The translations under genes were made by a program, and so were the position numbers. Positions 8,994 through 19,145 of a stretch of 21,995 bases of DNA are shown here, in pieces. The notes beneath the pieces were generated by a model that was not told where the DNA came from, did no database searches, and was given only the letters and a program-made list of their open reading frames with translations. This DNA is from a virus: positions 1-21,995 of the IMG/VR virus record IMGVR_UViG_3300017952_000119; one strand, 5' to 3'. The number at the start of each line of letters is the position of its first letter. The stretch's first letter is position 1.

Positions 8994-8999
8994 ATAATT
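8994..8999 (+). promoter_or_regulatory. Extended -10 promoter for the tRNA-like gene
   Basis: TGGTATAAT is an extended -10 element (TGn-TATAAT). Its TATAAT spans 8994-8999, exactly seven bases before the first base of the acceptor stem at 9006, so transcription would start at or next to the 5' end of the tRNA-like gene. No good -35 is seen, which is normal for extended -10 promoters. Confidence 0.5.
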
Positions 9000-9005
9000 A
9001 TTTTA

Positions 9006-9082
9006 GGGCTGGTACTGGAAAGACTTGCTAAGTGTTGCGGGACAGTTAGTAGGTAACGAGGGTTCGATTCCCTCCCAGTCCA
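9006..9082 (+). tRNA. tRNA-like gene, possibly tRNA-Ser(GCU) lacking a normal D-arm
   Basis: A seven-base acceptor stem pairs 9006-9012 (GGGCTGG) with 9075-9081 (CCAGTCC, one G-U pair). A perfect T-arm is present (GAGGG, loop TTCGATT, CCCTC, 9058-9074) with A at the discriminator position. No CCA is encoded. GTTA/TAAC at 9045-9057 abuts the T-stem like a long variable arm. The loop TTGCTAA would carry anticodon GCU for serine, but its stem has a G-G mismatch. I cannot draw a four-base D-stem, since the space between acceptor and anticodon stem is too short. It is either a functional D-armless serine tRNA, a decayed tRNA, or a tRNA mimic or attachment-site relic. The promoter placed just before it favours expression. 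Confidence 0.55.
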
Positions 9083-10109: not shown

Positions 10110-10293
10110 GCTCTCAGTTTATCTCCTTCTAAAAATTTTCTGTATATAAAAAATGGGTGACCAACAGGGTTAGTGAAAAATCGTAATTTTTGGTGGGGTG
10201 GGGTGCAAAGTTTTTCATTTTAAGTACTCATCACCTGTTTTGTGTAATAATTTTGATTGCAGCTCTATCCGATTGTTAAACGAGAACTTAATC

Positions 10294-10545
10294 TCAATCA
10301 ATCAGCTCTAGCAACCAGCTCCCATTGATTTTTATGCTCTCAAAATCTGTTTTAATCATGTGCTGCTGTCTGGATAAGTATGCTTTTGTGCTCTTTTGTT
10401 GAGTAAAGACACGGTCTTTGCTAATTGGCTCATTTATTGAGAACATTGCAGGTTTATTTCCATATCTAGTAGGCAACAAATCTTTGATATCTACTTGTTC
10501 TCCACTCACTAACCCCAGCATAAAGGCTTTCTCTATATCTATCAT
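10294..10545 (-). CDS. Hypothetical 83-aa protein downstream of the small terminase
   Basis: The gene starts 12 nt after the stop of the small-terminase candidate. The protein is mixed charged, without membrane segment or cysteines (MIDIEKAFMLGLVSGEQVDI near the start, KINGSWLLELID at the end). No family is recognised. A perfect AGTATACT palindrome sits 8 bases before the ATG, and its TATACT could serve as a -10 with start at or near the ATG, giving a leaderless message. That reading is speculative. After its stop, about 180 nt (10110-10293) carry no gene. Confidence 0.6.
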   Translation of the reverse strand: MIDIEKAFMLGLVSGEQVDIKDLLPTRYGNKPAMFSINEPISKDRVFTQQKSTKAYLSRQQHMIKTDFESIKINGSWLLELID

Positions 10546-10557
10546 GAGAACAGTATA

Positions 10558-10992
10558 CTATGAAACTTCAACACCATCAATCTCCTGTCTAATAGCTTGT
10601 AAGTACTCCTCTTTGCTCCCATCAACAATCATCACACCTTGTGTGATTTGTTGTTTTATTTCTGTCTGTTTCGGGGCGTCGAGTCCATACATCTTACTTA
10701 TTCTATCCATAACCGATAAAGCTCTGTCAATAGCTCCTAACTCTCCTTGTTGAACTCTCTCCCATAAGATTAATAAGATTTGATTTAGTCGCTCATACTC
10801 TACTTGTCGGAGTTCATCTGTAGGCTCGGCGATTATGGTTTTCATACTTCGTTGTACACTCTTATAAGCTCCACTACTATCAGCATATCCTAATTGCTTT
10901 GCAATGACCTCATAAGAAGCTCCAGCTTTGCGTAATTCGAGAGCTTGTCTGTCTTTTTCTCTTACTTCGATTGATTTAGTATTTACTTTCAT
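10558..10992 (-). CDS. Probable small terminase subunit / HTH protein
   Basis: Residues 10-45 form a helix-turn-helix with ALELRKAGASYEVIAKQLGY followed by an alanine/serine-rich turn and AYKSVQRSMK. ELRQVEYERLNQILLILWER and GAIDRALSVMDRISKMYGLD then complete a helical oligomerisation region. This order (rkaGasyxxIAxqLGY...AYkaV..., then 'E..Rl..ll..lw' and 'AidrxLrimerrakllGLD') is familiar from small terminase-like DNA-binding proteins of actinobacteriophages. The subunit would recognise packaging sites and load the large terminase, which is encoded at 17760-19145, unusually far away and beyond an opposite-strand block. Just before the ATG is the leader AGATAAAC with GAGTAC. Confidence 0.75.
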   Translation of the reverse strand: MKVNTKSIEVREKDRQALELRKAGASYEVIAKQLGYADSSGAYKSVQRSMKTIIAEPTDELRQVEYERLNQILLILWERVQQGELGAIDRALSVMDRISKMYGLDAPKQTEIKQQITQGVMIVDGSKEEYLQAIRQEIDGVEVS

Positions 10993-11279
10993 GTACTCTG
11001 TTTATCTTACTGTGAAACTGTCATCTATGCAAAGCCAAACCCCATCATTTTTGAATATCCCTTAGAGGTCTTAATTTATGTCGTGTTTCGCCATTACTTG
11101 TAGTACCTAAACACTATTTTTTTATCTTGAATAGTATCTATTTGGATAGTATTTGAGGTCTGGAAATAACTGTTTTTACGTTCTTTTACTCTATCTATAT
11201 CATAAAAATGATTTAATGACACCGAAGCCGATTTTTTTGAAAATTTCGTGCATTTGAGGGCAAAACCTTACCTTTGAGC

Positions 11280-11297
11280 TTGTGAAAAATTTCACAA
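11280..11297. promoter_or_regulatory. 18-base perfect palindrome
   Basis: TTGTGAAAAATTTCACAA is fully self-complementary apart from its two-base centre. TGTGA...TCACA half-sites are the classic shape of dimeric helix-turn-helix regulator sites, including CRP-like factors. It lies in the divergent control region, about 280 nt before the small-terminase gene start and about 800 nt before the plus-strand cassettes. Confidence 0.5.
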
Positions 11298-11364
11298 AGT
11301 CCAACTATTAGGCGTGTACTCAGCTAATTTTTGCTCAAAAATGGCTATTTTTTTAATGAATATT

Positions 11365-11392
11365 TATACATAAAAAATGTATAATTATACAT
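11365..11392. repeat. Iteron-like TATACAT repeats
   Basis: TATACAT occurs at 11365-11371 and 11386-11392, and its reverse complement ATGTATA lies between them at 11377-11383. The setting is nearly pure A/T. Three spaced copies in an A/T-rich stretch resemble initiator-binding or DNA-unwinding elements, but three short A/T-rich copies can also occur by chance. Confidence 0.35.
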
Positions 11393-11418
11393 AAATTTCT
11401 AGTCCTCTTGTATAAAAT

Positions 11419-11457
11419 CCCATGAAATAAGGCTTTAAAATAGGCTTATTTTATGGG
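11419..11457. other. 13-bp stem hairpin
   Basis: CCCATGAAATAAG (11419-11431) pairs with CTTATTTTATGGG (11445-11457), twelve canonical pairs and one G-U, around a 13-base loop. An alternative stem, AAAATAG with CTATTTT, overlaps it, so two exclusive folds are possible. No T-tract follows directly, so it is not a plain terminator. It may be a leader switch or a replication-related cruciform. Confidence 0.5.
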
Positions 11458-11511
11458 CTATTTTCCAGCTTATTTATTGAAAAAATCTTAAAAATAGGCT
11501 ACCTAATTGCG

Positions 11512-12060
11512 AGGACAATAGTATACTTATTATAAGGTATTTTATATCTTAAACCATCTTGGATAAAGAGGACAATAGGTGGTAGTTGGTCTATAGTCGT
11601 TGTCGGAGGACAAAATGGAACTGACCTTCAGCCTAAGTGTAAAACCTCTCCAAGAGGACACACAGAGCTTGTGTTTTCAAGCTGACTAGAGGTCAATACC
11701 TACACTCTTGCGACCTTACTGTCAGATGAGGACACAAGTTATGCCTTCGGTTATGAGGGCAGAGTTTGTGATGTTGGTGGTTGATTTTATCACAACCATA
11801 CGAGTGTCGGAGGACTGCTCAGACTACCATGATAACCAAGCCTGTTGGAGGGCGATACTTCAGTTCAAGAAGTAAAAACTACCAAGCTAGGTAGAGGACT
11901 AACGTTTTATGTGTTAGAAATTGTCTGTGCGTTGGTGTGTAGGGAGGGCAACCTCCTGTGTAGCCAAATAGTTTGTACAAAAGTACCATAATCATAAAAA
12001 AGAGGTCTTTTCTTAATAACCAAGTTCCTACATAATAGAGGACGCCTAGTGGATAATCAT
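11512..12060 (+). ncRNA. Candidate large structured RNA, about 550 nt
   Basis: This gene-free stretch is richer in G+C than its flanks and full of local pairing. TGACCT (11622-11627) pairs with AGGTCA (11690-11695). Inside are CCTCT-CCA-AGAGG (11645-11657) and AGCTTG-TGTTTT-CAAGCT (11666-11683). Further on is GGAGG-GCAA-CCTCC (11943-11956), a stem with a GNRA tetraloop. The phrase GTCGGAGGAC occurs twice. Large structured phage RNAs of this size (GOLLD, ROOL) are known, often near tRNAs, but I cannot assign one. Two short frames exist as alternatives: a 24-aa one at 11615-11689 with GGAGG before its ATG, and a 49-aa one at 11726-11875 without a site. Confidence 0.5.
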
Positions 12061-12062
12061 AC

Positions 12063-12334
12063 GATACGCATTACAATGTCCTCATAGAAATGGGGGTATA
12101 TATGGCTAGAATTGGCTCATGCAGAAGATGTGGAGGACACAATGCCTCAACTTGCTCCTGCGATAGATTAATGATTAATGCTAATTTTCCAATTCAAATG
12201 GGATTGGATAAAAAAAGAGGTCAAGCTCGAAAAATACTAATCAAAAATCCAGAAAAAATAAATCAAATAATAGACATATTAACTAATTAATTAACAGTAA
12301 CTAACTAACTAATGAGGACATTACAATGCGTATC
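12063..12334. repeat. Inverted repeat A around a one-gene cassette
   Basis: The left arm is 12063-12083 (begins GATACGCATTACAATG, ends GTCCTC). The right arm is 12314-12334 (begins GAGGACATTACAATGCG). Nineteen of 21 positions are complementary, the mismatches being two central bases. The left arm lies in the 5' leader of the 62-aa gene and the right arm 24 nt after its stop. GAGGAC is at the inner end of both arms. Confidence 0.75.
12102..12290 (+). CDS. 62-aa zinc-binding protein
   Basis: I start at the ATG at 12102 because GGGGG lies six bases before it; an in-frame ATG at 12090 would place that site inside the gene. The N-terminus ARIGSCRRCGGHNASTCSCD has C-x2-C followed by C-x-C, four cysteines and a histidine able to bind zinc. 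The rest is basic (KKRGQARKILIKNPEKINQI). The 'MARvGsCRxCGGhxAStCSC' opening is a known small-phage-protein pattern of unknown function. The gene is alone in cassette A, bounded by an inverted repeat. Confidence 0.75.
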   Translation: MARIGSCRRCGGHNASTCSCDRLMINANFPIQMGLDKKRGQARKILIKNPEKINQIIDILTN

Positions 12335-12378
12335 TAAAAGTACACTTCACAATGTACTCCGAGAAAGAGAGTATATAT

Positions 12379-12663
12379 ATGAATAAAGAACAATTATTAG
12401 AGTTGATTGAGGAATTTGGCGAGGTCAAATTCACTAGAAAACAACTTAATCTTTTAAGAGAAATCTTAAATGTTAATACTATGACACTAGTACATGAGTA
12501 CAGCAACAAAAACTCAAAAAGTTTCAAAGTTGCTTTAGAAAAATTGGCTAGTGTTAATTACGCTATAGCAAATGTTATGGAGGAGGTCAGCCCATCATTT
12601 GACCGAAATAAATGGTTCAATGAGGGCAACAAAACATCTTCTGCTTATATGCTATGGGGCTAA
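12379..12663 (+). CDS. Hypothetical 94-aa protein
   Basis: The ATG at 12379 is chosen because GAGAGAG precedes it. The in-frame ATG at 12352 lies within the inverted-repeat arm. The leader is nearly the same as that of the gene at 12102. The protein is mostly helical and acidic at first (NKEQLLELIEEFGEVKFTRK) and ends with a polar tail rich in Asn, Ser and Trp (FDRNKWFNEGNKTSSAYMLW). There is no cysteine and no membrane segment. The family is not recognised. Confidence 0.72.
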   Translation: MNKEQLLELIEEFGEVKFTRKQLNLLREILNVNTMTLVHEYSNKNSKSFKVALEKLASVNYAIANVMEEVSPSFDRNKWFNEGNKTSSAYMLWG

Positions 12664-12818
12664 GTCAAGAGGTCGATACACGTATAAAATGTATGTGTAA
12701 TCAATTCATGGCTAAAGTTTCCGTAATGGCTAACGTAAAGAGTACAACACTTGTACAATTCTTATGTTTCCATTGTGGTGCGAGTACAGTAGCCAAAGAA
12801 CAAGCTAAAAGAGTATAA
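12654..12818 (+). CDS. 54-aa zinc-ribbon protein
   Basis: The ATG at 12654 overlaps the end of the preceding gene by 10 nt, which suggests coupled translation. The protein reads MGLSQEVDTRIKCMCNQF at the start and has a second pair in FLCFHCGAST. C-x-C and C-x2-C with about 27 residues between make a plausible zinc ribbon of the kind found on transcription or translation accessory proteins. The pattern 'rikCxCxxxm.vsvm.nv.stt.vxFxCfhCG' suggests one beta-ribbon domain. It ends ten bases before arm B-right. Function is unknown. Confidence 0.68.
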   Translation: MGLSQEVDTRIKCMCNQFMAKVSVMANVKSTTLVQFLCFHCGASTVAKEQAKRV

Positions 12819-12911
12819 AATAATTATTCGGAGTACATTGAGAAGTGTATAGTATGAATTATAACAATCAGTAATCTACGATAGGTCTGTGTCCTCATGG
12901 AAGGATAAAAC

Positions 12912-13817
12912 ATGAATAAAGATAAGGTAATCTTATCAGAGGACGTAAGTTCTCTAATCCCTAAAGGCTCACTTGACAATTATGTTGAGAGAGTATTAGC
13001 AGGAGGTCAAACAGACCTACAAATACTAGCATACGCACACAAAGTAAGACACAATGTCCTCATTTCTGGGGATACAGGTGTTGGTAAAACTCATAGTGTT
13101 TCAGCTCATGCTGAGAGTACTAATTTACCATTTGTTTCCATAGCTTGTAATGGTGCAACTAATCCAGACCAAATGTTTGGGCAATTTAAACCATCAGAGG
13201 ACGGAAATGGCTTTGAGTGGGTAGACGGAATTGTTACAACTTTAGTAAGAAATGGTGGTGTCCTCTTACTAGATGAGGTTAATTTTATGAAACCAGACAT
13301 TTCGGCTGCCCTCCACCCTTTGCTAGATAGTCGTAGGACACTAACTCTAGTTGAAAATGGTGGTGAGGTCATCAAAGCTCATGAGGGTTTTCAAGCTGTA
13401 GCTTGTATAAACCCTAACTATGAGGGCACTAGACCATTAAACGAAGCATTTAAAAATCGCTTTGGTATTCATTTAGAATACACCTACGAGGGCAACAATG
13501 AGGATATTCTCGTTGAGAATAGACCAGCTTTGCTTGAACTCGCAGAAAAGCTAAGAATTGCTCGTGAAAATGGTACGATTGCAACTCCTGTGAGTACAAA
13601 CTCACTTATGGAATTTGGCGAATTTGTTGAGGACTTAGGTCTTGAATTTGCTATTTCCAATTTCGTTAATAAATTCGATATTGATGAAAGAGCAGCAATC
13701 AAAGAGTACTTTGATATATTAATCCCACAAATCGCTAACGAATTTGGCGAGGACGTTCCCGACATGTTTGTCAATGATGTTCCTCAATCAAATGACTTAG
13801 ATGATACAGATAACTAA
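12912..13817 (+). CDS. MoxR-like AAA+ ATPase
   Basis: Walker A is GDTGVGKT (residues 53-60), Walker B LLLDEV (118-123), sensor asparagine in CINPNYEG (168), and an arginine-finger candidate in FKNRFG (183). The GATNPDQMFGQF segment is typical of MoxR/CobS-like ATPases. Such proteins act as rings that remodel a partner and nearly always pair with a VWA-domain protein, which here is the next gene, 15 nt downstream. Together they could mature, unfold or insert metal into a target. The target in this phage is unknown. The C-terminal 50 residues are acidic (NDVPQSNDLDDTDN). GGAAGGA precedes the ATG. Confidence 0.9.
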   Translation: MNKDKVILSEDVSSLIPKGSLDNYVERVLAGGQTDLQILAYAHKVRHNVLISGDTGVGKTHSVSAHAESTNLPFVSIACNGATNPDQMFGQFKPSEDGNGFEWVDGIVTTLVRNGGVLLLDEVNFMKPDISAALHPLLDSRRTLTLVENGGEVIKAHEGFQAVACINPNYEGTRPLNEAFKNRFGIHLEYTYEGNNEDILVENRPALLELAEKLRIARENGTIATPVSTNSLMEFGEFVEDLGLEFAISNFVNKFDIDERAAIKEYFDILIPQIANEFGEDVPDMFVNDVPQSNDLDDTDN

Positions 13818-13832
13818 GAGAGGACTAACTTA

Positions 13833-15797
13833 ATGGATAATGAAAAAATGTCCATTGAGGAATTTAACGAGTTGATAGAGAGAATGGTTGAGGACACCTC
13901 AGCCAACTCTCTTGATGAAATGTCTGCTGAGGACAAAGCTCGTAAATCAATGGTCGATATTATCGGTCAGAGTTTTGCGAGTACATTTACTAAGGTAAAT
14001 CGTATTTTACTTGGCGACTATGAAACTCAAATATTCCTTGAGGACGGTAGACAAAAAATGATTGATGCTCCTGCATGGACAGATGGCGAGGACGTATATT
14101 TGAATAAAAGATACGTTGCGAAATCTTTTGCTAATTTGGTAGAAAGTAACCAAATTAACTTTAAGAACATAGCAGAGGTCAAAGGTCTTAATTATCACGA
14201 GTTGGCTCATATTTTCTTTACACCGCGTATGAACAGTAAGATAGCGAAAGAGGTCAGAAAAATGGCTGACCAATTTCCTGATTATTGGTATGCGTTTAAC
14301 GTGTTAGAGGACTTACGAGCAGAAATGTCTATGGTTATGATATTTCCAAAAATTGTTGATTATTTTTCAATCGCAGTTTTCAACTATATCTTAAACCAAG
14401 AGGACGGTGATGTTGCAAATTCTTATATGTTGTTAAGTGGTAGATATTTTCTACCAATCGAAACACGTATGGAAATGAGGTCATTATTCGCACAAGAATA
14501 TGGCGAAAATTTCACAAAGAATATGGAACAGATTGTCGAGGACTACGTTAAGAATATCACTTATACAAACACCCGATATCAAGAGGGCTATGACTTAATC
14601 GAAAGATTTGTCATAGAAGTGTTAAAGCCTATGAGGACTAAGTCTGGTAAGGCTTTGCCGAAGTGTATAGGTGGTAGCCAACACGTAAACGATAAAGATG
14701 CAGGAGCTGGTCGAGGTCATTGGAAGAAAACACAACAAGGTAGTCTTTCAAAAGGCAGTACGAGAGTACAAGACCAAAAACTTGTTAAACCTTTTATAGA
14801 TGAATTAATTCAAGAAGTTAAGGAAACTATAGAGGACATGAAATCTAACGAAGTTACTAACTTAGGTACTAAAGCTGGACGAGGTCAGGCTGATAACCAA
14901 TCTGTAAAAGATGTAAAAGCTAGTTTAGAGGAAATTATCGAAATATACGAGTCCAATCCTACTTTTAAAAATGATGTTGAAATTACTAAAAAAGATATTT
15001 CATCAAAAATTGAGAAAGCAGTTGAGGACATTAACGTTGTCGGTATTACGGCTAAACCTATGCTTGTTGCACCTTCTCCGAGTACACTTAGTCTAAAATC
15101 TCAAATTGATAGATATTTTAGACAATTAAGAATTGACTTAGAGCAAGATTGGTTACGAGGTCGCAAGACAGGTATCGTAGATATGAACAGATTGATGAGG
15201 ACACAACATCTTCCTAGAGCAGATGTTTTCAAAAAATGGAAACCTAGCGAGGAGGACGCTGCTACTAGCGAGTGTGTCATATTGCTTGATATGTCGGGCA
15301 GTATGGATAGCGTTGCGAGGTCAGCTAGTGAAGTTGTGTGGATATTAAAACAATCGTTAGATAAAATCGGTGTGAGGACTACAGTATTAGGCTTTGCTAA
15401 TCAATGTTATATTGTTTACAAACCTAACCAAAAAGCTCAGAGAGGACAAGTTCCTGTCTATGCTACAGGTGGTGGAACTCAACCCGAGTACGCTTTAAAA
15501 CAAGCATTAAACGTTTTACGTACAAGTGATAGAAACAACAAATTTGTTGTTGCCCTCACTGATGGTGCTTGGACAGATAGCGATAAAGAAATCGAATTAG
15601 TTAGAGAAATTACAAAAGAGGTCGATAGTTCAAATCTCTTATTCTATGGAGGATATTTCGACATAGAGAGGGCTAAGGACAAAGACAATTATGCTTTTGG
15701 AAATTTCACTAACATTAAGCAAATAAAGAAGTTAGAGGACACTTTAGATATTGTAAAATCTATCGTTTCCGATATAACTAATAAATATATATACTAA
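13833..15797 (+). CDS. VWA-domain protein with HExxH motif, MoxR partner
   Basis: An HExxH zinc-protease-like motif is seen at residues 122-126 (LNYHELAHIFFTPR), with an acidic segment VLEDLRAE at 157-164 that could supply the third ligand. The central part is helical, charged and probably flexible. Near the C-terminus is a von Willebrand A domain with the metal-ion-dependent adhesion site LLDMSGSMDS (485-494), and later GGGTQPEYAL and ALTDGAWTD as the second and third parts. A CobT-like or 'HExxH-VWA' partner is the expected companion of a MoxR ATPase. The protein could be a chaperone-assisted protease. GAGAGGA precedes the start. It contains about 30 GAGNNC words. Confidence 0.88.
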   Translation: MDNEKMSIEEFNELIERMVEDTSANSLDEMSAEDKARKSMVDIIGQSFASTFTKVNRILLGDYETQIFLEDGRQKMIDAPAWTDGEDVYLNKRYVAKSFANLVESNQINFKNIAEVKGLNYHELAHIFFTPRMNSKIAKEVRKMADQFPDYWYAFNVLEDLRAEMSMVMIFPKIVDYFSIAVFNYILNQEDGDVANSYMLLSGRYFLPIETRMEMRSLFAQEYGENFTKNMEQIVEDYVKNITYTNTRYQEGYDLIERFVIEVLKPMRTKSGKALPKCIGGSQHVNDKDAGAGRGHWKKTQQGSLSKGSTRVQDQKLVKPFIDELIQEVKETIEDMKSNEVTNLGTKAGRGQADNQSVKDVKASLEEIIEIYESNPTFKNDVEITKKDISSKIEKAVEDINVVGITAKPMLVAPSPSTLSLKSQIDRYFRQLRIDLEQDWLRGRKTGIVDMNRLMRTQHLPRADVFKKWKPSEEDAATSECVILLDMSGSMDSVARSASEVVWILKQSLDKIGVRTTVLGFANQCYIVYKPNQKAQRGQVPVYATGGGTQPEYALKQALNVLRTSDRNNKFVVALTDGAWTDSDKEIELVREITKEVDSSNLLFYGGYFDIERAKDKDNYAFGNFTNIKQIKKLEDTLDIVKSIVSDITNKYIY

Positions 15798-15869
15798 ATA
15801 AATCGAGGACATTAGACCTATCGTAGATTACTGATTATCAAAATTACTCTATATTAATTAGGAGGACAT

Positions 15870-16037
15870 ATGACACTAATGCAAATGTTTTTCAAAGATT
15901 GTGATAATTGTGGGAGTACTACAATTTGGACAAAACTTGAACAACGTAGTGAAACTCAAACTCTAGTCGAGTGCGACCAATGTGAAAGACAGGAAATCAT
16001 GCCGACTACAGTACACGAGGACGTTTTAGATGGTTGA
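15870..16037 (+). CDS. 55-aa zinc-ribbon protein
   Basis: GGAGGACAT directly precedes the ATG. The protein has two knuckles, KDCDNCGSTT and VECDQCERQE, making C-x2-C and C-x2-C about 20 residues apart, the normal form of a zinc ribbon. It resembles the 54-aa protein of cassette B in size and layout. Nucleic-acid or RNA-polymerase contact is possible but unproven. Its end overlaps the next gene by 8 nt. Confidence 0.75.
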   Translation: MTLMQMFFKDCDNCGSTTIWTKLEQRSETQTLVECDQCERQEIMPTTVHEDVLDG

Positions 16038-16416
16038 TGACATTAAAAATATTTTAATTTCGTTAAATCTAATTCGTACACAAAAGTTATCCTTAGATGA
16101 CCAAGAGAGTACATTAAAAGCTAAGTTAATGCAATATCTCAAAAATAGTGATATGAAAAGTTTTTCAGTATCACATGAGGGCTTAAACATTAAATCTACT
16201 CTAGTCAAAAATGACAGAATAGAAATTGATGAGTTAGGACTTATTGAGGACTTATCTACAGAGCAATATGATAAAATCATAAAAAAATCTATAGATAAAA
16301 AATTGCTTGAAATCGCCATTAAAAATGGGGATATATCAGAGGACATAGCTAAGAAATATCTCAAAGTCAAAACAGGTAAAGATTATATTAAACTTAATGT
16401 TGAGGAGGACAAGTAA
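16030..16416 (+). CDS. Hypothetical 128-aa protein, coiled-coil N-terminus
   Basis: The start lies 8 nt inside the previous gene, with GAGGAC at a usable distance before it. An N-terminal helix (LIRTQKLSLDDQESTLKAKL) is followed by a strand-rich middle with SVSHEGLNIKSTLVKNDRIE and a C-terminal KYLKVKTGKDYIKL tail. The layout 'short coil, MQYLKNSDMKSF, small beta unit, YDKIIKKSIDKKLLE' recalls Gp157-like and similar phage proteins, often next to recombination or anti-restriction genes. Assignment is not possible. The stop and the next start share a base (TAATG). Confidence 0.65.
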   Translation: MVDDIKNILISLNLIRTQKLSLDDQESTLKAKLMQYLKNSDMKSFSVSHEGLNIKSTLVKNDRIEIDELGLIEDLSTEQYDKIIKKSIDKKLLEIAIKNGDISEDIAKKYLKVKTGKDYIKLNVEEDK

Positions 16417-16715
16417 TGGTTAATCCAATACAAAAATCCCCCTCAGCATTGAGGACTTGGGTTGATAAAAACACAAGAGAAAAAGTATTTTTACCGATTG
16501 ATTTGGCGAGGTCTTTAGATGTGGATATTAAGACAGTTCGTAGGTGGTTGAGAACAAAGAAAATTTTGCCTAGCTATCATTTAAAGCAAGGAAAAAATTC
16601 AATACCAATATGGACTTCTGAGGACATTATCTATGTACAGAATTGGTATGTCAATAAATCAAAAGGAAAACAACCTAAATATAGAGAGGAGGTCAGTACA
16701 GATGATAACATTTAG
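16416..16715 (+). CDS. MerR/excisionase-like helix-turn-helix protein
   Basis: LARSLDVDIKTVRRWLRTKK (residues 25-44) is a clear winged-helix turn, with KTVRRWLR as recognition helix. The rest of the wing (GKNSIPIWTSEDIIYVQNWY) matches the SxxI/xWtxeDI pattern of MerR-type or excisionase (Xis)-type domains. The protein is basic and about the size of a phage regulator. It may bind inverted repeats or bend DNA. With no integrase seen, a regulator is more likely than an excisionase. GAGGAGGAC precedes the ATG. Confidence 0.75.
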   Translation: MVNPIQKSPSALRTWVDKNTREKVFLPIDLARSLDVDIKTVRRWLRTKKILPSYHLKQGKNSIPIWTSEDIIYVQNWYVNKSKGKQPKYREEVSTDDNI

Positions 16716-16905
16716 TAGTGGCTTACATTTCGGCATTATCGTAACTATGATTTTCATAGGTATATATGCTATTTACGAGGTCTTTAATATACTTCGTTTA
16801 GCCTATGCCGAATATAAATATAGAGAGCAAAAGCCCATAAACATTGACTTTAGCAAGAGTTCAGATGTTGATGAGTTTTTCAATGAAACTTACAAAAAAT
16901 GGTAA
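16702..16905 (+). CDS. 67-aa protein with one N-terminal membrane helix
   Basis: The ATG at 16702 is selected because GAGGAGG lies 9 nt before it; upstream in-frame ATGs sit inside the HTH gene without a site. Residues 9-31 are one hydrophobic helix (FGIIVTMIFIGIYAIYEVF), followed by a charged cytoplasmic-type tail (AEYKYREQK, FSKSSDVDEFFNETYKKW). The function is not recognised. Small single-span phage proteins of this kind may exclude other phages or sense the membrane, but the sequence shows no motif. Confidence 0.68.
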   Translation: MITFSSGLHFGIIVTMIFIGIYAIYEVFNILRLAYAEYKYREQKPINIDFSKSSDVDEFFNETYKKW

Positions 16906-17120
16906 AGAAACCAAGTCTAAACGAGGGCGATACCATAGAACACGCTTTAACTGTTGAAACTGTTATAGCTGGTCAAAAAATATGGATAAAGACAGGAGCT
17001 ACCACTACTGTGAGGACAGGCGAAAGTCCGAGTGGTGCTAGTAAACGTTTAGCCAACTTTGTAAGCAGGAGGACTTCACAACAAGTGCAAGAAATCCGAA
17101 ACGCAGGTAAATCAGAGTAA
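16899..17120 (+). CDS. Hypothetical 73-aa protein
   Basis: The start overlaps the preceding gene by 7 nt and has no clear ribosome-binding site, so re-initiation after that stop is likely. The protein has a strand-rich start (IEHALTVETVIAGQKIWIKT) and then SGASKRLANFVSRRTSQQVQ, a basic helix. 'vyGkkiwvKxgaxttvRxGEs...a..Rl..fV' is a recurring phage theme, possibly a small nucleic-acid-binding domain. Its stop lies inside the right arm of inverted repeat D, and a strong terminator follows 30 nt later. Confidence 0.65.
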   Translation: MVKKPSLNEGDTIEHALTVETVIAGQKIWIKTGATTTVRTGESPSGASKRLANFVSRRTSQQVQEIRNAGKSE

Positions 17121-17150
17121 TTTTGAGTACATAATTCATACATACCTTTT

Positions 17151-17200
17151 GGGGATAGTAGTTAAATTTAATTATTTAGCTACTATCCCCATTTTTTTTT
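17151..17200 (+). terminator. Rho-independent terminator of the plus-strand module
   Basis: GGGGATAGTAG (17151-17161) and CTACTATCCCC (17180-17190) form a perfect 11-bp stem with an 18-base loop, followed by A and then nine T bases (17192-17200). It sits 30 nt after the last plus-strand stop and closes the 12.1-17.1 kb transcript. Confidence 0.92.
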
Positions 17201-17759
17201 GTGCTCTTTTTTCATCTAATGACAATCCCCAGAGGGTGAAACAAAAGAGAACATTTAATATTCTTTGGCTTACGCAGCAGCCTTTTTTATTTTCATTGGA
17301 GAACATTTTTTTGTGGGTTACATTGGTAGATATCAGGAAAAAGAGAACTTAATCTAATGGCAGCGAAGGATATTTGCTCTCTTTTCATGTTTTCTTCGCC
17401 ATCTGGTTTTTGCAAAAAAAAGCTCTCACATTGGGACGAGATTTTTTTCCAGATGCTCTCTTTTTTCTTTTTTTTTTCAGGGGGGTTCGGGTTAAAAAAA
17501 CGAGAGCCATACCTTCCACCACCACCACCTTCAGTAAAAAAAATGTTCTCATCACCCAGCTTCCCTGAGTTTTTGCTCTCATTTTTTAGTGCAAACCGTT
17601 TGCAAGAAGAATTGTCCTCTTTTTTAACGCAACATAATAATTGTCCTCGATTTTTTTCAAATACACCTTTAAGGGCACTTTTAAAATGCACTCGCAACTT
17701 TCAAAACTTCCACAAATGAAAAATGATATTTTTGACTAACTAGATAAGAGTGCGAAGGT
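17201..17759. other. Gene-free stem-loop and T-tract region
   Basis: Frames open here on both strands but are low-complexity and unsupported by sites. GCTCTC or GTCCTC is repeated at least six times, usually followed by a run of T (about 17375, 17422, 17455, 17572, 17615, 17645). One stem is ATGG..CGAAG with CTTCGCCAT (17357-17402) and the next is ATCTGG with CCAGAT (17401-17454). A palindrome GCAAACCGTTTGC follows near 17591. On the minus strand the repeats read GAGNNC after A-runs. The region separates the plus-strand module from the end of the large terminase gene. Confidence 0.55.
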
Positions 17760-19145
17760 TCAAAGACTCCAAGGACTTTTGTCACGAACAAAATCAATTA
17801 ATGGTGCTAACGCTTCAAACTTAAATCCACGTTCTGCCCATGCTAAAGCCATAGCAACCATGCTGTCAGGTGTGTGTCCGTTTCCAAAGATATCATCAAA
17901 ACCAGCATATTTATGGTCTTGATACATACTTTCTATCATTGGACTTTGAATTAATCCACGCTCACACGCAGAAATATATTCAGAAAATAAGTTCTTTTTA
18001 TTACTTCCAGTAATTACATAAGGAATTGAATCAACTGTTATGTAATCTTCTACTACATTACCAATACCAGTAGCATCATGAACTAATTTCCCAGGATATT
18101 TAGCTAATCTTTGTTCAGCTTTTGCTACCATATCTCCCCAAGGCTCACGGTGTGTTCTTTCAAAAGCAACTACACGCCAAGGTTCAACATCAGTTCTTAA
18201 TGTAGTTATAACTGTATAATCTCTTTGCTTTGCCCAGTCCACTCCAGTTATGTAAGTGCCCTCCCCCATATACTTTTCGAACTGGTATTCTACACCGACT
18301 TCTCCAGAAACCTTATCGTGTGTTTGTAATGAAAACATTTCATCAACTTTCTCTGCTTCTATAGCTCTACCTTCAAATGAAGGCTCTTGCATATCAAATT
18401 CTATATCCCACATAGCTTGTGAAACTTCACTTCTTTTTCTTTCTACTTCTGTAGGCTCTAACCAACCATGTGGTTTAACTGTTTCTCTCCAACACCATTC
18501 ATATACTGGATAACCTTTTTCTTTTGCTCGTCTAAGCATTTCTGTCATAGTTTTATCTGGATATTGGTGTGTAGATGAAGCAACTGTTTGTGTTTGAATA
18601 CCATTTTTAGCCATTGGCTGTCCTTGTGCTGCTTCTAAGATGTCTAATTCCATTTCGTCTATCTCATCTAGTCTTAGTCTTTGTGGGTGCTGACCACGAA
18701 CAGACCTTTGTGAAGCTGTTAAAGCTCTAATCCAAGCTCCTGAAGTTAAATTAGTTGAATATTTGTTTGGTGCATCTACTAAAAGACCTGTAGGTGCGTT
18801 TTTATGTGCCCATGCTTCTAAAGATATTTCATAAACACGAAGTGATTGTGCTGCAGAACCTCCTAGTACTGTTACCTGAGCTCCTAAAGTTACTGCTTCC
18901 GTCAGGGCTAAAAGTCCTAAAGTATTAGTTTTTCCTCCCATACCACGACTTGCTTTCCAAATAGAAAAAGGATGCCTACCAAAGTAAGCATCAGCGAATG
19001 CGTCAAATGGGGATTGGTGGTGTGGACAAATAGGTGTTCTAGGTATGGATATTCCCCATAATAAACGAACTACTTCCCATAATTCATCATCATCTTGGGG
19101 TGGTCTTCCTAAAATTAGCTGTTTTTTTGCTTCTGTTTGTTCCAT
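17760..19145 (-). CDS. Large terminase subunit
   Basis: The N-terminal ATPase has Walker A ASRGMGGKT (residues 65-73) and Walker B LRLDEIDEM (157-165, with the catalytic glutamate). The C-terminal RNase H-like nuclease begins with ITGVDWAKQRDYTVI near residue 298, giving the first metal aspartate, and continues through VHDATGIGN, which gives the second. It packages DNA into the prohead and cuts it. The length of 461 aa is at the lower end for the family but complete. The small terminase is 7 kb away at 10558-10992 on the same strand. Its upstream gap to the JAB gene contains an inverted repeat at 19167-19219. Confidence 0.92.
   Translation of the reverse strand: MEQTEAKKQLILGRPPQDDDELWEVVRLLWGISIPRTPICPHHQSPFDAFADAYFGRHPFSIWKASRGMGGKTNTLGLLALTEAVTLGAQVTVLGGSAAQSLRVYEISLEAWAHKNAPTGLLVDAPNKYSTNLTSGAWIRALTASQRSVRGQHPQRLRLDEIDEMELDILEAAQGQPMAKNGIQTQTVASSTHQYPDKTMTEMLRRAKEKGYPVYEWCWRETVKPHGWLEPTEVERKRSEVSQAMWDIEFDMQEPSFEGRAIEAEKVDEMFSLQTHDKVSGEVGVEYQFEKYMGEGTYITGVDWAKQRDYTVITTLRTDVEPWRVVAFERTHREPWGDMVAKAEQRLAKYPGKLVHDATGIGNVVEDYITVDSIPYVITGSNKKNLFSEYISACERGLIQSPMIESMYQDHKYAGFDDIFGNGHTPDSMVAMALAWAERGFKFEALAPLIDFVRDKSPWSL

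Follow-up and report, generated by a model that had tools for sequence, protein, structure and literature searches.

Short DNA motifs that are restricted to one region and read by a small DNA-binding protein are known from the RacA/ram, MatP/matS, Noc/NBS and SlmA/SBS systems, with tens of sites per hundreds of kilobases, and the pac and cos regions of phages (SPP1/SF6, lambda) are short and hold few repeats. On the RNA side, pre-rRNA stalks and hok-type fold-back mRNAs form a long-range helix around an RNA unit, in which the pairing is kept and the sequence is free. Here we analyse 21,995 nt of viral DNA (IMG/VR record IMGVR_UViG_3300017952_000119, positions 1–21,995; hereafter the window), in which a chain of four gene cassettes, each enclosed by a pair of inverted-repeat arms, lies within a 7.6-kb island tiled with the 6-bp word GAGNNC. 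We know of no described system in which a multi-kb locus, genes included, is tiled at ~60 bp by a word that is avoided elsewhere and switches as a set of about 130 sites, and a limited literature search found no comparable tiled locus.

The stoperators of Cluster A mycobacteriophages are asymmetric sites, mostly oriented with transcription, whose sequence varies with the reader between relatives (PMC6550527). The array described here likewise consists of many short asymmetric DNA sites whose word varies between relatives. Stoperators, however, are 13-bp sites spread over the whole genomes of temperate phages, whereas here a 6-bp word occurs in 132 copies within 7.6 kb, evenly spaced, running through coding sequence and avoided elsewhere. 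The genome-wide spread of stoperators is not seen (133 words in 7.9 kb, compared with 33 in a further 49 kb of G001), and their single orientation is shared within the + operon (88 plus and 10 minus sites) but not in the flanks (14/20). In common with RacA/ram-type arrays the motif is restricted to one region, and a 99-aa protein encoded in the island has RacA as its best, although weak, PDB match; unlike RacA- or MatP-type arrays, the island has a site roughly every 60 bp, with gaps filled in, and lies in a phage. As in pac/cos regions, the array stands between the terminase genes terL and terS, close to both, and the terminase small subunit (TerS) is a helix-turn-helix (HTH) DNA-binding protein, but the array measures 7.6 kb, and phages with homologous TerS lack any such array near terS. 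The DNA-binding domain of SF6 TerS has little sequence preference (PMC4737164).

For the arms, the first-pass annotation drew a parallel to the start-associated sequences (SAS) and extended start-associated sequences (ESAS) of cluster K, the latter having one common 17-bp consensus with both repeats upstream of the gene (PMC3203893). The arms resemble these as inverted repeats just before start sites in actinophages, but they stand on either side of a gene block, follow no common consensus and pair at distances of 0.2–3 kb, and the 17-bp inverted-repeat consensus beside a 13-bp SAS upstream of genes is not found. As in pre-rRNA stalks and hok-type mRNAs, the helix joins sequences before and after the unit and the pairing is kept while the sequence changes, whereas here, as far as the sequence tells, a chain of four surrounds protein-coding cassettes in one phage operon. 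Integron attC cassettes are marked by a conserved core site at every junction and by an integrase; among the arms no common junction core is seen (no attC model search was made), and no integrase is among the families listed for G001.

Relatives were obtained from separate IMG/VR samples, with ATPase identities of 96–100% (L002–L005), 76% (L069/L007) and 60% (L006). The close relatives form a small group of uncultured phages, scans of genome contigs returned no close relative, and the features of the island agree across six separate metagenome contigs.

Tiling of the island by GAGNNC

The array and the two terminase genes that delimit it are as follows.
10110..17753, both strands counted: tiled array of 132 GAGNNC words, near-uniformly + in 11.5–17.13 kb and mixed in the flanks
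10558..10992, minus strand: terminase small subunit (HTH), second candidate reader, inside the array (tblastn and alignment)
17760..19145, minus strand: terminase large subunit, whose stop codon is the array boundary

The words follow one another at a mean spacing of ~58 bp over the 7.6 kb, from the terL stop codon (17760) to ~450 bp beyond terS. To express this regularity, the coefficient of variation (CV) of the spacing of GAGNNC was compared with that of 104 comparable words. It is 0.317 in the window (both strands), where the next most regular word reaches 0.77, and 0.316 for the 123 sites of L069; in L006, 125 GCGNNC sites give 0.315, against 0.64 for the next-lowest word. The island values are lower than all 5000 nulls. 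Sites occur in all reading frames, in a non-coding leader and beyond the operon terminator, and the + strand alone carries 89 GAGKNC sites in 11.0–17.15 kb (mean spacing 69). The first-pass annotation had noticed GAGGAC inside each arm of the third cassette, which is indeed there, but as part of the larger tiling, which it had overlooked: by hexamer counts GAGGAC occurs 33 times in 12–17.15 kb, where 1.1 are expected, and nowhere else in G001.

Written in full, the motif reads GAG-N-(not C)-C-(not C), with G or T at position 4 in the operon and also A or C in the flanks, and the edges of the array look as if they carried weaker sites. Position 4 is G at 75 of 98 central sites, and A, C or T at 27 of 34 flank sites (10110–10993, 17201–17575).

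Site numbers in genes were compared with codon shuffles, in sense and antisense. Coding sense sites number 64 vs 15 in the window island and 63 vs 9 in that of L006, whereas outside the island the word is depleted, with 2 sense sites vs 20.8 expected and 3 antisense sites vs 11.7 in G001, and 5 vs 24.0 and 2 vs 14.2, respectively, in G003. No comparably regular word was found in the distant relatives L071 (VWA 26% identity), L086/L087 (TerL 55%), L095–L097 (TerS ~37%) and L101–L106, nor in named Arthrobacter, Gordonia, Rhodococcus, Microbacterium and Brevibacterium phages; where Gordonia and Brevibacterium phages carry an AAA/CobT-like pair, it comes with neither the tiling nor cassette-closing arms. 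A hexamer enrichment in L039/L043 (GGCGAG) was dismissed as irregular (CV ~1).

Reading on DNA and change of the word as a set

Nine minus-strand sites in the + operon sit midway in the largest gaps between plus sites, at a mean distance of 47 nt from the nearest plus site, against 18.7 nt expected (0 of 20,000 trials were as large), and the same gap filling is seen in L069 and L005. This placement argues that double-stranded DNA, and not RNA, is what is read. The lattice runs on with equal regularity and mixed orientation to both sides, leftwards through the minus-strand genes and rightwards beyond the terminator, and outside the island the word is avoided on both strands.

Between the window and L006 the word changes as a set, from GAGNNC to GCGNNC, mostly at new positions. 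Of the 72 window sites in 12.85–17.2 kb, L069 retains 43 and L006 retains 10 at their positions, and despite this turnover the site counts stay at 72, 65 and 73 for the window, L069 and L006, a comparison which indicates that selection acts on spacing and not on position. At nine exactly orthologous coding sites GAG has become GCG; six of these are in frame and convert Glu to Ala. The DNA word here overrides the protein sequence.

Besides TerS, one more HTH protein is encoded within the array.
16416..16715, plus strand: 99-aa MerR/Xis/RacA-like winged-helix protein, candidate tiling reader

Its Pfam matches are weak (HTH_17/MerR/Exc), RacA (E 0.027) and an excisionase are among its best, also weak, solved matches, and its identity among relatives is 64–74%. 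In the TerS alignment, the recognition helices of GAG phages and of the GCG phage are set apart by a single Q to K substitution, at residue 47 (SSGAYKSVQRSM and SSGAYKSVKRSM), the kind of change expected for a switch from A-T to C-G, which with one GCG phage is an anecdote. The putative reader would most likely be the 99-aa RacA/Xis-like protein, and otherwise TerS.

Paired arms around the cassettes

All four arm pairs proposed in the first-pass annotation are present where it had placed them, each enclosing one cassette (A–D).
12063..12085: left arm A, pairs with 12312..12334 (21/23)
12312..12334: right arm A, missing together with left arm A in L003, L004 and L069
12341..12362: left arm B, pairs with 12828..12849 (21/22)
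12828..12849: right arm B; an outer helix TCATAC (12056–12061)/GTATGA encloses A and B
12857..12888: left arm C, pairs with 15814..15845 (29/32, with a perfect 23/23 core)
15814..15845: right arm C, still 23/23 in L069 despite a double change
15838..15850: left arm D, pairs with 17114..17126 (13/13)
17114..17126: right arm D, partner of 15838..15850

Pairs within 4 kb were scored with +1 for a match and −2 for a mismatch. Only three pairs in the whole window score at least 17, namely C (23), B (19) and A (17), and in two 57-kb relatives such pairs are confined to the same island. When 11.5–17.2 kb was shuffled 60 times with dinucleotides preserved, the kind of control that the first-pass annotation had suggested, the top score was 16 and pairs of at least 16 averaged 0.017 per shuffle; arms A to C are stronger than every shuffle, and their origin by chance is ruled out. 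Arm D, with a score of 13, is at chance level in the whole-island search (0.4 expected per shuffle). At its predicted place, from arm C to the start codon on one side and at the last stop on the other, it recurs in the window, L004 and L005 (13/13) and in L069 and L006, with P ≤ 0.0055 in each case against shuffles of these two short stretches only. The left arms always lie upstream of the ribosome-binding site and the right arms after the stop, as had been described. The further claim that arms are private to each cassette holds fully for C and D and fails for A and B, whose inner left-arm halves have ACAATGTNCTC in common (10/11).

The idea that pairing rather than arm sequence is kept was borne out by the relatives, which change both partners and so pass the test set in the first-pass annotation, where one arm altered beside an unaltered partner would have refuted it. 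In L069, the B arms have compensated columns (C-G to T-A and A-T to G-C, in one direction or the other), and double changes turn A-T into T-A in the C arms and T-A into C-G in the D arms; L006 has a new D pair. Around the same two genes as in C, the L006 arms are of wholly different sequence and pair at 24/25, and the cassette before this C equivalent is closed by a 23-nt pairing that includes two G.U pairs. Because both partners change jointly across relatives, the arm pairing is, on this comparison, under selection. No cassette-closing arms were found in L071, in L111 or around the L112 gene pair.

Cassette A and its arms are present in the window, L002 and L005, and form a clean presence/absence unit; where they are absent, the flanking TCATAC and GTATGA extend the B helix to a single helix of 30 nt. 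The small genes of cassette B are not the same in the window, L004 and L005. The interpretation first given to this locus is therefore supported as regards pairing, joint change and cassette A as a unit, while it had missed the larger tiling.

Proposed organisation and alternative explanations

We propose, with a probability of roughly 40%, that the locus is organised in two layers, loop-closed cassettes and a word lattice coated by a phage HTH protein. In the first layer, the + operon would open with a structured RNA of ~500 nt, and a long-range helix from the 5′ leader to the stretch after the stop would enclose each following gene block. Each block would then be a closed loop in the transcript, most likely protecting or delimiting an mRNA unit; the position of the arms, before the ribosome-binding site and after the stop, suggests RNA as the pairing molecule, and mRNA protection or RNase III processing may take place there. 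In the second layer, ~130 copies of the word, about every 60 bp in double-stranded DNA, would mark the locus and its flanks, and a small phage HTH protein would bind them and load the region evenly into one nucleoprotein domain. We infer this reader and the coating from the lattice, and the purpose is a guess: to organise, anchor or silence the region during infection, or to offer it for packaging.

The tiling points to an undescribed way to mark or coat one stretch of a viral genome. Tentatively, the island could be seen as a chromatin-like phage domain, a locus that combines a structured RNA of its own and loop-closed cassettes, is written in a private DNA word at near-regular intervals and is, to the exclusion of the rest, coated by a phage protein. 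This view, put forward with the same caution, would include a joint change of word and reader between relatives, with coding sequence bent (Glu to Ala) to hold the lattice. If true, the locus would be a compact, testable example in which selection on the spacing of DNA-binding sites prevails over protein sequence and a DNA word evolves jointly with its reader; the arms would add a second layer, long-range pairing across the operon that sets the bounds of mobile gene cassettes.

Several observations weigh against this proposal. The RacA/Xis match of the 99-aa protein is weak (E 0.03–0.3), and the phages Tank, Bolt007, Jace and Hendrix, which have homologous TerS, show no regular word near terS, an argument against TerS being the general reader. 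For L006, the avoidance control covers little sequence, 4.8 kb of genes outside the island. Among arm mismatches, G.U and A.C are roughly equal in frequency, so that RNA is favoured by position only. Adjacent plus-site spacings peak near 38, 47, 56, 69 and 88 bp, corresponding to a phase of ~10.5 bp at half-integer turns, with a pooled r of 0.24 (n 223) and P 0.001 for the window by itself. Since the window and L069 have some sites in common by descent, this helical phasing is no more than supportive; L006 on its own has the same phase without reaching significance (P 0.13).

An unlikely alternative is a giant pac platform, in which TerS would bind the words between terL and terS and the terminase could start anywhere in the region. 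The word would then be avoided elsewhere, on both strands, because stray sites would misdirect packaging, and the array indeed spans terS, stops at the terL stop codon and contains TerS as an HTH gene, with Q to K as the only difference in its recognition helix. However, the four actinophages named above have no tiling by terS, known pac sites are short, the SF6 domain has the low sequence preference already mentioned, and a start site need not span 6 kb of genes gaplessly.

We find it equally doubtful that a stoperator-like repressor along the operon blocks or slows elongation, which would explain the uniform orientation relative to the + transcript. The asymmetry and orientation of the Cluster A sites, and their variation with repressors among phages, match the 88+/10− sites of the operon and the set-wise change of word, but both orientations occur in the flanks, and the gaps of the operon are filled by minus sites. 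Moreover, the sites are concentrated in one locus at ~17 per kb and not genome-wide, and the families listed for G001 include no recognisable repressor or integrase.

As for the arms, it is improbable that they act as DNA, as ends of exchangeable cassettes whose match is maintained by recombination or by gene conversion between inverted copies. The gain and loss of cassette A together with its arms, the variable content of cassette B and the similar numbers of G.U and A.C mismatches would fit such a process. No common recombinase site and no inverted cassette is found in any relative, though, and a 1x1 mismatch in helix B, which conversion would erase, is retained in three of four sequences with differing bases. 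Their constant position relative to ribosome-binding site and stop, and the L006 B arm kept paired by two G.U pairs, also argue against DNA ends and for the long-range RNA helices proposed here.

It is very improbable that the word marks sites of an RNA-coating protein along the + transcript. The strong + bias in the operon, including the non-coding leader, is what such a protein would produce, but the mid-gap minus sites, the both-strand avoidance, a lattice that crosses the terminator and opposite-strand genes, and the lack of preference for hairpin loops led us to reject an RNA-binding motif. Finally, codon bias, restriction avoidance or chance can hardly have made the repeats and arms, since, although other words are avoided in these genomes and GATC is absent, the codon shuffles and the CV nulls exclude bias and chance as the source of the tiling, restriction avoidance leaves the enrichment and regularity inside the island unexplained, the arms beat every shuffle and six separate metagenome contigs agree.

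Leader and genes of the island

The remaining features of the + operon are listed here.
11562..12050, plus strand: structured non-coding RNA leader, ~500 nt (86% column identity over 4 phages; z −3.1)
12102..12290, plus strand: cassette A ORF, 62 aa, Cys-rich
12352..12818, plus strand: cassette B ORFs, 103 aa and 54 aa, content differing in L004 and L005
12912..13817, plus strand: AAA+ ATPase, CobS-like (phrog_249)
13833..15797, plus strand: VWA-domain protein, CobT-like
15870..17120, plus strand: cassette D, five small ORFs of 55, 128, 99, 90 and 73 aa
17150..17191, plus strand: intrinsic terminator-like hairpin of the + operon, beyond which the tiling runs on

In the leader, 15 of 164 predicted pairs are changed on both sides (covarying), and a comparison with Rfam families (e.g. 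ROOL, GOLLD) gave no match at the gathering score and none at E ≤ 5. A ~1.1-kb non-coding stretch before an AAA/CobT-like operon, like the window leader, is present in Gordonia phage ChisanaKitsune (L111, about 1300–2460); no Rfam match, tiling or arms are seen there. The cassette A ORF probably starts at 12102 and not at 12090, as the first ATG is incompatible with a 1-nt insertion in L005.

By tblastn, TerS homologues occur in Arthrobacter, Microbacterium and Gordonia phages, from which, together with WhiB, the host is probably an actinobacterium. The terS gene (10558–10992, minus strand) matches phrog_645, labelled ‘RNase E’; homologues annotated by depositors are terminase small subunits, and the label looks wrong.

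Minor observations

No tRNA genes were found in the window; at 8998–9082 (plus strand) a stretch has a serine-type tRNA look by eye, with the end ...GGTTCGATTCCCTCCCAGTCCACA, and ARAGORN reports no tRNA. In G001 (L072–L074), Pfam searches identified proteins with a SET domain (E 7e-9) and with a JAB domain, and also a short C5-cytosine methyltransferase (L072:11972–12562). GATC is missing from the window, L006 and L072–L077, with 0 copies in two contigs of 57 kb, and strong depletion in the same sequences extends to several other palindromes. Outside the island, TGGGTC is strongly enriched and polar in the window and L072–L077, with 26 plus vs 2 minus sites in G001, where about 6 are expected in genes on both strands together, while L006 has 1/1 over 14.7 kb; this bias resembles T7-type primase recognition sites. 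GTGKDC is mildly over-represented outside the island.

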